Assembly (NCBI GenBank): GCA_009695305.1
Contig: SIBG01000001.1
Coordinates: forward strand, 38,478 to 102,477
From: Opitutus sp.
Lineage (GTDB): Bacteria; Verrucomicrobiota; Verrucomicrobiia; Opitutales; Opitutaceae
Length of the DNA stretch: 64,000 nucleotides
Direction of reading: 5' to 3'
Shown: positions 57,888 to 62,600 of the stretch, in pieces
How the letters are laid out: every line of letters begins with the position of its first letter
Numbering within the stretch: position 1 is the first letter of the stretch
Notes under the pieces: model-generated
The model's input: only the letters and a program-made list of their open reading frames with translations
What the model was told of the DNA's origin: nothing
The model's database searches: none
Made by a program: the position numbers and the translations under genes

Positions 57888-57949
57888 AGCTTTCTGTGGA
57901 CGGGCCGGCGAAAGCTTGCCGGGTGCCGGCCGATCAGCGTGGACCGACT

Positions 57950-58010
57950 CCCGGCTTGAAGGCCGTCGCGAAATACACGGCGAGCAGGATCAGCGCGAAG
58001 CTCACCGCGT
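57950..58010 (-). pseudogene. C-terminal fragment of a DUF486-family gene
   Basis: 61 nt identical except one base to 62240-62300; reverse translation AVSFALILLAVYFATAFKPG. Confidence 0.75.
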
Positions 58011-58271: not shown

Positions 58272-60314
58272 ATGCGACCGAACCCCAAGTTGACACGTTT
58301 CGCTGCAGTTGGCGCGACCATGATGGTGATCGCGCTCGGGTCGCTGCTACCCGTTCGCGCCGCCACCGACTTCGCCAAATACCACAACTACGACGAACTT
58401 TCGGCCGCGCTGAAAACCGCGGTCGCCGCCCATCCCGAGCTCGCCAAGATCGAATCGATCGGCCGGACGAGAGAAGGGCGCGAGCTCTGGGCGGTGGAGA
58501 TCGCCAACCGCACGGGGACTCCCGTCGACAGCCGGCCCGCCCTGCTCATCGCCGCCAACCTTGAGGGCGACCACGTGATCGGCAGCGAACTGGCCCTCTA
58601 CCTTGCCGACTTTTTGCTCAACGCGTATGCGACGGACGCCGCCGTCAAGCAACGTCTCGACCACTCGGTGATCTACGTCGTGCCGCGGCTAAACCCGGAC
58701 GGTGCTGAGCAGATGTTCGCGCCCGTCAAGGCGCTGCGCCGGAGCAACGCGACGCCGTTCGACGCCGACAACGATGGTCGCACGGACGAAGACGGGCCGG
58801 AGGATCTGAACGGCGATGGCGTGATCACCGTCATGCGCGTGAAGGACCCGAAAGGCCCTTACATGATTAGCCCGGAACACCCGAAACTGATGAAACGCGC
58901 GGATCCCGCCAAGGGTGAAGCCGGCGGCTGGGCGCTCCACCCCGAGGGCATCGACAACGACGGCGACGGTTTCATCAACGAAGACGGACCCGGCGGCGTC
59001 GATCTCAACCGCAATTTCATGCACCAGTATCCTTACTTCGGTGCCGACGCCGGCCGCTACATGGCGAGCGAAACCGAAACGCGGGCGATGCTCGAATACG
59101 TGCTGAAGCACCGCAACATTGCCGCGATCCTCTCGTTTGGCGAAAGCGACAATCTGATCGCCGCCGCCGGGCGGGCCGGCACCGCCGCGGCGATCAACCT
59201 CATCGATTTTGCCGAGGCCAGCAACGCGGGCGCCCGACGCGTTGGCCTCGCGGTGGATTTTGGCGGAGGTGCCGGCCGTGGCGGATTCGCTGCCGCCGCC
59301 GCCGGAGATGAATCGACGCCAGCGGCCGCCGCGGCTGGCGCGCGTGGCGCCCAAGCTCCGGCCGCGGGCGGCCGCGGCCCCGGCGTGCAGCCGGCCACCA
59401 CGGTCAATGCGGCCGACACGGAGTATCTCAACACGATTGCCACCAAGTATCGCGAGTTGACCGGGCTGAGCAGCTCGGGCTACACGCGGGCGCCGGCCGG
59501 TGCGTTTTACGAATATGGCTATTACCAATACGGCGTGCCGTCGTTTTCGACGCCGGGCTGGGGCCTGCCCGCCGGCGCTCCCCCCGCTGGTTCCGCGACC
59601 GGAGCCCCCGAGGGCGAGGCGGTGGCGCGGCCGGCTGCACCTCCCGTGGACGCAGCAGCCGGCCGGGCCGGCGGCGGCGGCCAGCGCGGAGGTGCCCGCG
59701 GTGGACCCGGCCGGGGCGCTGGTCGCGGTGCCGGTGGTGTCGCCGGCGCTGCCCCTCCGGCTGCGGCGGTCCCCGAGGGGATCGATTTGCGACTCCTGAA
59801 ATGGATGGAGAGCGAAAAAATCGACGGGTTCGTCGACTGGACGCCGTTCAAGCACCCGACGCTGGGCGACGTGGAGATCGGCGGCTTCAAGCCCTATGTG
59901 ACCGTCAATCCGCCGGCAGAGAAAATCGCCGACCTCGGAGCGGGCCACGCCAAGTTCGTCGTCTACCTCACATCGCTCTTCCCGAAAATCGCGTTCGCCA
60001 AGACCGAAGCCACCGCCCTCGGTGGCGGCCTCTATCGCATCAAGGCGGAAATCGAAAACACGGGCTACCTGCCCACCGCGCTCGCGCAAGGCGTGCTGGC
60101 CCGGTCCGTGAAACCAAGCATGGTGCAGCTCGGCGTCCCCCCCGAATCGATCCTCACCGGCGCGGAGAAGACCAATTCCATCCCGACGCTCGCCGGTTCG
60201 GGCGGCCGGATGGCGTTCGAGTGGGTGATCAAGGGCAAACCCGGGACCTCCATTCCCCTCAAGCTGGTTTCGCAAAAGTCCGGCACCGACAGCGCGACGC
60301 TGCCGCTGAAATAA
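58272..60314 (+). CDS. M14-family carboxypeptidase-like protein, probable non-canonical/inactive metal site
   Basis: MRPNPKLTRFAAVGATMMVIALG signal peptide; PRLNPDGAEQM, GGVDLNRNFMHQYP M14 motifs. HxxE replaced by EGDH. Confidence 0.8.
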   Translation: MRPNPKLTRFAAVGATMMVIALGSLLPVRAATDFAKYHNYDELSAALKTAVAAHPELAKIESIGRTREGRELWAVEIANRTGTPVDSRPALLIAANLEGDHVIGSELALYLADFLLNAYATDAAVKQRLDHSVIYVVPRLNPDGAEQMFAPVKALRRSNATPFDADNDGRTDEDGPEDLNGDGVITVMRVKDPKGPYMISPEHPKLMKRADPAKGEAGGWALHPEGIDNDGDGFINEDGPGGVDLNRNFMHQYPYFGADAGRYMASETETRAMLEYVLKHRNIAAILSFGESDNLIAAAGRAGTAAAINLIDFAEASNAGARRVGLAVDFGGGAGRGGFAAAAAGDESTPAAAAAGARGAQAPAAGGRGPGVQPATTVNAADTEYLNTIATKYRELTGLSSSGYTRAPAGAFYEYGYYQYGVPSFSTPGWGLPAGAPPAGSATGAPEGEAVARPAAPPVDAAAGRAGGGGQRGGARGGPGRGAGRGAGGVAGAAPPAAAVPEGIDLRLLKWMESEKIDGFVDWTPFKHPTLGDVEIGGFKPYVTVNPPAEKIADLGAGHAKFVVYLTSLFPKIAFAKTEATALGGGLYRIKAEIENTGYLPTALAQGVLARSVKPSMVQLGVPPESILTGAEKTNSIPTLAGSGGRMAFEWVIKGKPGTSIPLKLVSQKSGTDSATLPLK

Positions 60315-60343: not shown

Positions 60344-62173
60344 ATGAAAAAACTTTTCAAACCCACCGCCACGCTGGTCCTGCTGACCGCGCTCATGTTG
60401 CTGGAATCATCCGGCCTGTCGGCGCAAAACACTGCGGCCGCCGCCGCGCCCGCCCGCCCGGCCGCCGACTGGAGCCGCACCCCGACCTCGGAGCCCACCT
60501 ACAAGGTGCGACTGGACTTCAACCGCTGGCACGACGTCGCCGATCTTCAGGCCGACCTGCGCACGCTCGAAAAAGCCTACCCGAAATTTCTGAAATACAT
60601 TTCGCTCGGCAAGAGTTACGGCGGCCGCGACATCGCCGGGATTATTCTCAACAATCCCGACACCGGTGCCGACACCACCAAGCCGGCGATGTATATCGAG
60701 GCCAACATCCACGGCAACGAGATCCAGGGCGGCGAAGTCTGCCTCTACACGATTTGGTATCTGATGGAGAACTATGGGAAGATTCCGCGCATCACCAAAC
60801 TCGTCGATGAGCGGGCGTTCTACATCGTGCCCTCGGTCAACCCCGACGGTCGCGATTATTTCATGCACGGCTCGGGCCAGGGTGCGCGCACCGGACACCT
60901 GCCGCTCGACGAAGACAACGACTATCTGTTCGACGAAGACGGCCCGGAGGATTTGAACGGCAACGGCGTCATCGAGCAGATCCGCAAATACGTGCCCGGC
61001 CAGGGCACGCACCGGAAAAGCGCCGCCGATCCCCGCATCCTGGAAGCCGTCAAACCGGGCGAATTCGGCGACTACGTCCTGCTCGGCGTGGAGGGCATTG
61101 ATCACGACGGCGACGGCCGCGTGGGCGAAGACGGTCCCGGCGGCTACGATCCCAACCGCAACTTTGCGTCCGACTGGCAGCCGAACTACGTCCAGCGCGG
61201 CGCGATGGAGTATCCGTTTCAGTTGCCCGAGGCGAGGGCCGTCAACGATTTCCTCCTCGCCCATCCGAATGTCGCCGGTCTCCAGACCTACCACAACAGC
61301 GGCGGCATGATCCTGCGCAGCCCCGGGGCCGAATCGATCGGGGAATATCCGGCGGCCGACGTCCGCGTCTATGATGAAATCGGCCGGACGGGCGAGCGCA
61401 TGCTGCCCTATTATCGCTACCTGATCATCTGGAGCGGACTTTACACGGTGCACGGCGGCACCACCGACTGGGGCAACGACACGCTGGGAATCCTGTCGTT
61501 CTCGAACGAGCTGTGGAACGTCGGGCAGTATTTCAACAGCCCCGAGCTGAAGGAGCAGCAAAGAGATCCGGAGAGTGTGATCGCTCCGCGCGTGGCCAAT
61601 AATTTCTTCAACGACAAACTGGAGTTCGGTGACGAGCTGACGGAGTGGAAGGCCTTCAAGCACCCGCAATTTGGCGACGTCGAAATCGGCGGGACTTTCA
61701 AGAAGACCTTTGGCCGCCTGCCACCGCGCTTCATGAACGAGGAGCTCTGCCACCGGAACATGGCGTTTTCCCTCTACCAGGCCGACGAAATGCCCCAGAT
61801 GGCGATCGGCGAAACCAAGGTCGAAAAAATCGCCGACGGCGTTTTCAAACTCTGGGTGGACCTCAACAACCCGAAGGTGACTCCCACGATCCTGGCCAAG
61901 GCCGCGCTGAACAACGTCGTGCCGCCGGATTTGTTGACGATCGACGGCAAGGGACTCGAAGTGCTGGCGGCCAGCTGGGTGCCCAACAAGTGGCGGCCCG
62001 GCGTAGCCCCGATGATTGATCAGAAGGACTTGAAACGAATCATGGTCCGCAACGGCCACCCTGGCCGCACCATCCGCACCGTGCAATACCTCGTCCGGGG
62101 ATCGGGTAGCGTGTCCGTCACCTATGCCACGGTGAAAGGTGGCACCGTGCGGAAGGTGATCGCGCTCCAGTAG
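60344..62173 (+). CDS. M14 family metallocarboxypeptidase, secreted
   Basis: ANIHGNEIQGGEV (HxxE), PSVNPDGRDYF, GGYDPNRNF, LQTYHNSGGMIL (third His). Confidence 0.87.
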   Translation: MKKLFKPTATLVLLTALMLLESSGLSAQNTAAAAAPARPAADWSRTPTSEPTYKVRLDFNRWHDVADLQADLRTLEKAYPKFLKYISLGKSYGGRDIAGIILNNPDTGADTTKPAMYIEANIHGNEIQGGEVCLYTIWYLMENYGKIPRITKLVDERAFYIVPSVNPDGRDYFMHGSGQGARTGHLPLDEDNDYLFDEDGPEDLNGNGVIEQIRKYVPGQGTHRKSAADPRILEAVKPGEFGDYVLLGVEGIDHDGDGRVGEDGPGGYDPNRNFASDWQPNYVQRGAMEYPFQLPEARAVNDFLLAHPNVAGLQTYHNSGGMILRSPGAESIGEYPAADVRVYDEIGRTGERMLPYYRYLIIWSGLYTVHGGTTDWGNDTLGILSFSNELWNVGQYFNSPELKEQQRDPESVIAPRVANNFFNDKLEFGDELTEWKAFKHPQFGDVEIGGTFKKTFGRLPPRFMNEELCHRNMAFSLYQADEMPQMAIGETKVEKIADGVFKLWVDLNNPKVTPTILAKAALNNVVPPDLLTIDGKGLEVLAASWVPNKWRPGVAPMIDQKDLKRIMVRNGHPGRTIRTVQYLVRGSGSVSVTYATVKGGTVRKVIALQ

Positions 62174-62220: not shown

Positions 62221-62582
62221 TTATCGACCCCCGGCGCCGCCCGGCTTGAAGGCCGTCGCGAAATACACGGCGAGCAGGATCAGCGCGAAGCTCACGGCGT
62301 AGTTCCACGTGAGTTTTTCGCCGAGCACGAACCACGCAAACGCGACAAACACTCCCAGTGTGATCACCTCCTGCGCGATTTTGAGTTGATACCCACTCAG
62401 GCCGCTGGCGTAGCCCCCGCGATTCGCCGGCACCATCAGGCAGTATTCGAAGAACGCGATGCCCCACGCCATGAGGATCACGAGCCAGAGCGCCTTGCCC
62501 TCGAAAATCTTCAGCTTGAGCTGCCATACCAGGCCAGCGTCATGAAAATATTGGAGGCGACGAGGAGGAGGATGGTTCTCAT
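62221..62582 (-). pseudogene. DUF486-family membrane protein, frameshifted (or assembly error)
   Basis: MRTILLLVASNIFMTLAWYG then stop in frame 1; LKLKIFEGKALWLVILMAWGIAFFEYCLMVPANRGGYA... continues one base out of frame. Total length is 362 nt. Confidence 0.75.
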
Positions 62583-62600
62583 ATTCTGAAAAAAGGAATT

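Follow-up and report, generated by a model that had tools for sequence, protein, structure and literature searches.

The window, the whole stretch of 64,000 nucleotides of Opitutus sp. DNA that was analysed (contig SIBG01000001.1), carries between recA and a DMT-family gene two adjacent genes for predicted secreted proteins of the M14 metallocarboxypeptidase type, here called ORF A and ORF B, whose features are collected in the table. Both proteins are recognized by the Pfam profile PF00246, ORF A with E=3.7e-31 (109 bits as compared to a cut-off of 21.6) and ORF B with E=1.1e-43, and the two align to each other with 26% identity over most of their length (E=3e-48). Neither has a match in NCBIfam, PADLOC or PHROGs, and at the search sensitivity applied the rest of the genome yielded no M14 protein beyond these two.

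Table. Positions of the genes, active-site motifs, loops, inserts and repeats at the locus, numbered along the window
Feature	Position	Strand	Remarks
66-bp direct repeat, left copy	57945..58010		Duplicated 3' end of the DMT gene; 88-90% matches to the DMT 3' end in relatives
ORF A, M14 pseudopeptidase, secreted (predicted)	58272..60314	+	680 aa; N-terminal signal peptide (by inspection), M14-like domain, C-terminal beta domain
ANLEGDHVIGSE, ExxH in place of the HxxE zinc motif	58554..58589	+	E98 codon 58563-58565; H101 codon 58572-58574
Two calcium-type loops of ORF A, DxDxDG / DxNxDG (D164-D174, D178-G183)	58761..58820	+	Asp positions kept in A and B; the first is Asn in divergent A
Third calcium-type loop of ORF A, DxDxDG (D228-D238)	58953..58985	+	From the alignment
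DLNRNF of ORF A, carboxylate-binding Asn-Arg retained	59001..59018	+	N246/R247, equivalent to N144/R145 (bovine CPA numbering)
ILSFGESDNLI, G290 in the position of the third zinc His	59127..59159	+	From the alignment; FGESDN in A, YHNSGG in B
First disordered insert of ORF A, Ala/Gly/Arg-rich, residues 299-372	59166..59387	+	pLDDT <50 for nearly all residues
P428 where the catalytic general base E270 is expected	59553..59555	+	STPGW in A, SNELW in B
Second disordered insert of ORF A, Ala/Gly-rich, residues 436-501	59577..59774	+	pLDDT <50
ORF B, canonical M14 metallocarboxypeptidase-type paralog, secreted (predicted)	60344..62173	+	609 aa; start 29 bp past the ORF A stop codon
HGNE zinc motif of ORF B, intact	60710..60721	+	H123, E126; invariant in 30 B sequences and in 53/53
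H317, third zinc ligand of ORF B	61292..61294	+	From the alignment of B sequences
E389, general base of ORF B	61508..61510	+	From the alignment of B sequences
66-bp direct repeat, right copy	62235..62300		95% identical to the left copy; 3' end of the DMT gene

We note that ANLEGDHVIGSE of ORF A stands opposite ANIHGNEIQGGE of ORF B in the alignment, which sets EGDH against HGNE. A sequence-only reading of this DNA had described this exchange of HxxE for ExxH in the first paralog, the absence of the third zinc-binding His and the retention of NPDG and DLNRNF, and all of these observations are confirmed: the residues of ORF A at the zinc-ligand positions H69, E72 and H196 are E, H and G, while the carboxylate-binding pair N144/R145 persists as N246/R247 and NPDG is likewise kept. 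The missing general base, with Pro at position 270, and the two disordered inserts are additions to those earlier observations. ORF B has the full set of residues of an active enzyme (H69, E72, R127, N144, R145, H196 and E270), as do 53/53 of the partner B proteins, and is presumably an active peptidase.

Domain profile and predicted fold agree in placing ORF A among the M14 homologues. The model of ORF A (pLDDT 80) has CPT as its top match in the PDB, a partial one with a TMt of 0.60, and the top Foldseek matches are all CPT/CPA, with E down to 5e-16; the model of ORF B (pLDDT 83) matches the CPT fold with a TMt of 0.77-0.78. The two disordered inserts break up the M14 fold in the predicted model of ORF A. 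Three DxDxDG-type loops are likewise present in ORF B (60907-61140), and the loops of both proteins look calcium-binding. Because their Asp residues are nearly invariant even in A, the scaffold of A is under selection despite the lost active site. For both proteins the closest solved sequence and fold is carboxypeptidase T, an M14 enzyme of Thermoactinomyces vulgaris, to which both add the DxDxDG loops and a C-terminal domain; B retains all of its catalytic residues, whereas A, which covers no more than part of the fold, has neither the general base nor any of the zinc ligands.

Four close orthologues (66-79% identical) emerged when 84,980 species genomes were scanned with A; they belong to MAGs of Opitutaceae (L009), Vicinamibacterales (L010) and, twice, Acidobacteriota (L011 and L012), and all four carry AN[FL]EGDH[VL]IGSE together with FGESDN and are followed by a canonical B. 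The conserved EGDH subfamily that the sequence-only reading proposed to search for therefore exists, shared by four orthologues of independent assemblies, and HxxE, which that reading would have taken as a sign of error, is found at the aligned position in none of the close relatives. Among 396 Acidobacteriota genomes searched with a profile, 51 had strong matches and 49 of these an A gene, a count that is a lower bound, with three candidates scored per genome. The family of the window (150 genomes) and its phylum (388 genomes) yielded canonical M14 proteins only and no relatives of A. Outside Acidobacteriota and Verrucomicrobiota the coverage consisted of one single-sequence genome scan, plasmids and viral contigs; the plasmid records held distant matches only, all below 60% identity, the best of which, Halomontanus, proved to be a canonical M14 and was rejected as a relative of A, and the viral contigs held no match to A. 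From the fetched regions, 58 A proteins and 53 partner B proteins were aligned, the sequences coming nearly all from MAGs.

None of H69, E72, H196 and E270 is retained in any A protein (0/58), whereas all four are present in 53/53 aligned B proteins, which supports the earlier suggestion that ORF A is a pseudo-peptidase. Among the 58 A proteins, 51 have Glu and five have Asp at position 69, and 35 have His and three have Gln at position 72; position 196 is Gly or Ser without exception, and one of Pro, Asp, Asn and Arg stands at position 270; position 197 (E291 in ORF A) varies between E, A, H, L and P. The 21 core members all keep R145, and in three of them H72 (H101 in ORF A) has become Gln. 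One large subclade has Val, Ile or Thr at position 72, and the more divergent L124-L126 have Ser or Ala at position 69. A search of the A alignment for a third metal ligand fixed near ExxH found none, nor do the A relatives hold any conserved alternative set of ligands, the finding that would have spoken for an intact zinc site in the sequence-only reading. Parsimony makes E69 and H72 ancestral for the A clade, and ExxH is also retained, together with the equivalents of N144/R145, in several deep branches; a divergent subclade of about 20 proteins (L082-L095 and L103-L106) would have lost H72, N144 and R145 together at a point later than the A base. Being basal by parsimony and lost in some A proteins, the ExxH swap appears to be old and retained, though no universal requirement. 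One member of the divergent subclade, L092, has a charged, helix-like sequence in place of the low-complexity inserts.

The pairing of the two genes is invariable: B lies directly behind A on the same strand for 52/52 A genes with enough downstream DNA, with the dead and live paralogs side by side. The A stop and B start share a 4-base overlap in 19 of the 52 pairs and lie within 36 bases in nearly all others, and the remaining A genes are cut downstream by a contig end, except for one with its partner split in frame. The reverse search with B found A upstream in every checked case with sufficient sequence, including the distant B-like L128. The expectation of a pseudo-peptidase maintained beside an apparently active paralog is thus borne out, the pair occurring together in every testable case.

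A and B each form one clade, even when the catalytic columns are left out, with support of 1.0/0.998 and 1.0/1.0 in FastTree and SH-aLRT values of 100 and 100 in the quick IQ-TREE analysis, all taken from an unrooted tree; as unpaired M14 proteins fall near the root, the tree does not fix A and B as exact sisters. The two families co-diverge, with 39 of 49 splits in common between their trees (null mean 0.16, maximum 2) and a correlation between A and B distances of r = 0.93. Five genomes have two A genes and a sixth has a second, split A, and in genomes with two complete pairs each A lies beside its own B, so that the match between the trees is not explained by species history alone. A is under purifying selection: dN/dS (NG86) is 0.11-0.22 for A as compared to 0.07-0.14 for B, with A evolving more quickly than B by a factor of about 1.3.

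The pair forms a 4.2-kb insert in the window, flanked by the two copies of the 66-bp direct repeat, and a relative (G004, locus L118) has the corresponding empty site, with the recA, DMT and epimerase genes contiguous and recA separated from DMT by about 166 bp. The contig can be assigned to Opitutaceae because the adjacent RecA is 92% identical to that of a same-family genome. In the Opitutaceae orthologue L009 the pair is surrounded by sulfatase and esterase-like genes. A and B thus move as one unit. Judged from these comparisons, the window pair is a horizontally acquired single module of 4.2 kb, for which Acidobacteriota would be the simplest source, since the relatives are concentrated there. 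No recognizable transposase or integrase accompanies the inserted pair. The small DMT-family membrane protein gene (62230-62590, minus strand) is frameshifted, with its N-terminus and the rest in different frames, as either a true break or a MAG error. No conserved wider neighbourhood points to a substrate, the neighbours being limited to clades: a large secreted protein of the sortilin-Vps10/BNR type adjoins the pair in 15 loci (L012 364-3366 and 14 others), and a TldD/PmbA metallopeptidase gene lies near it in six loci of one clade (L073, L075, L076, L077, L078 and L080).

We consider it probable that ORF A, as a catalytically dead M14 homologue, is exported and serves as an obligate partner to B, the active M14 peptidase; it corresponds to the MEROPS type of non-peptidase homologue that has no catalytic residues and is conserved by selection. 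Counting against this reading are the faster evolution of A, its large disordered inserts and the lack of a wider conserved neighbourhood. A and B would go back to an ancient duplication that took place within Acidobacteriota or close to them, and the zinc ligands and general base would have been lost once in A, ahead of the radiation of the family. The two proteins would be co-translated, then exported separately via their own signal peptides, and may form a heteromer, with B as the peptide-cutting subunit and A assisting its folding, capturing substrate or exerting control; the window pair would have entered the Opitutaceae genome by horizontal transfer of the single module. As the Asn-Arg pair is kept in the EGDH/ExxH clades, a non-catalytic pocket for peptide C-termini may be the likeliest retained activity of A, although a carboxylate pocket cannot be the function common to all pairs, since the divergent A clade has lost N144/R145. 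Rather unlikely, in our view, is the more specific proposal that ExxH with Asn-Arg constitutes a remodelled, non-hydrolysing pocket under selection, by which A might grip a peptide C-terminus or bind a different metal, feeding or gating B.

Alternatively, A might be a dedicated inhibitor or a secretion or folding chaperone which keeps B inactive until export and is no permanent subunit. A gene that always comes first, is translationally coupled to B and co-diverges with it one-to-one is what such a role would predict, but A and B each have a signal peptide of their own (by inspection) and A is a full-length multidomain homologue and no small propeptide, and we regard this role as unlikely. We recognize that co-translation and co-divergence would equally suit an inhibitor or a chaperone for secretion, or a single operon whose two secreted products act independently. 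The other possibility raised by the sequence-only reading, a re-wired metal site in which E98, H101 and another residue bind zinc or another metal in a new catalytic or structural site, would draw on the inferred ancestry of ExxH in A and its retention in several deep branches, on N246/R247 kept alongside it, and on the variability of M14 metal motifs, such as the QxxE of H. pylori Csd4 (PMC4220969). It is nevertheless unsupported by the A family and, to our minds, improbable, if conceivable in the EGDH core clade: H72 and every candidate third ligand vary, with Gln replacing H101 in the three core relatives, E291 (position 197) unconserved and position 196 Gly/Ser, the general base has given way to Pro, Asp, Asn or Arg, and the large Val/Ile/Thr subclade and the Ser/Ala relatives have abandoned positions 72 and 69.

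A functionless, decaying duplicate might be suggested by the vanished catalytic residues and by the occasional stop or frame breaks in the MAG copies L059 and L127, but a dN/dS well below 1, frames that stay open over deep divergence, the universal pairing and the horizontal co-transfer of A and B make this very improbable, and we rejected it on grounds of conservation. That the window DNA derives from a MAG might likewise raise the suspicion of a sequencing or assembly error in the ExxH motif; its recurrence in the four independently assembled orthologues and in many other genomes renders this scarcely credible, and this explanation too was rejected.

The preferred reading, a dead M14 homologue partnered with an active one, has parallels in known systems. 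The eukaryotic M14 pseudopeptidases AEBP1, CPXM1, CPXM2, CPD domain III and Ecm14 have likewise lost catalytic residues and serve conserved roles other than catalysis (PMC11266112); they retain H69 and mostly E72, whereas A loses all three zinc ligands and E270 and, unlike them, is bacterial and belongs to an obligate gene pair whose other member is an active paralog. In the TldD/TldE metalloprotease of E. coli, live and dead paralogous subunits are both required for activity (PMC5810440), but the fold, that of the TldD/PmbA family, is unrelated, and the heterodimer is proven there as compared to proposed here. The alpha and beta subunits of the mitochondrial processing peptidase (M16) are inactive and active paralogs, found as two-gene operons in bacteria (PMC11266112), with an M16 fold and HxxEH motif that are non-homologous to the M14 pairs. 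Csd4 of Helicobacter pylori, an M14 enzyme with its first zinc ligand altered to give QxxE (PMC4220969), is still active and has both the Glu and the later His, whereas A retains none of the three. An extracellular antiphage protease was considered as a related system and rejected, being a serine protease. A review of pseudopeptidases lists M14 cases from eukaryotes only (PMC11266112), and our literature search found no bacterial M14 live/dead pair.

A and B are probably a long-standing working pair across a phylum, and A represents an ancient lineage of bacterial M14 pseudopeptidases tied one-to-one to an active partner. The automatic label “zinc carboxypeptidase” misdescribes the first gene in every pair. 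The pair makes the role of a dead protease subunit directly testable in a simple two-gene system, one present in at least 12% of the sampled Acidobacteriota genomes. If it is true that the dead subunit reads peptide C-termini, this would be the first heteromeric M14 peptidase of that sort.
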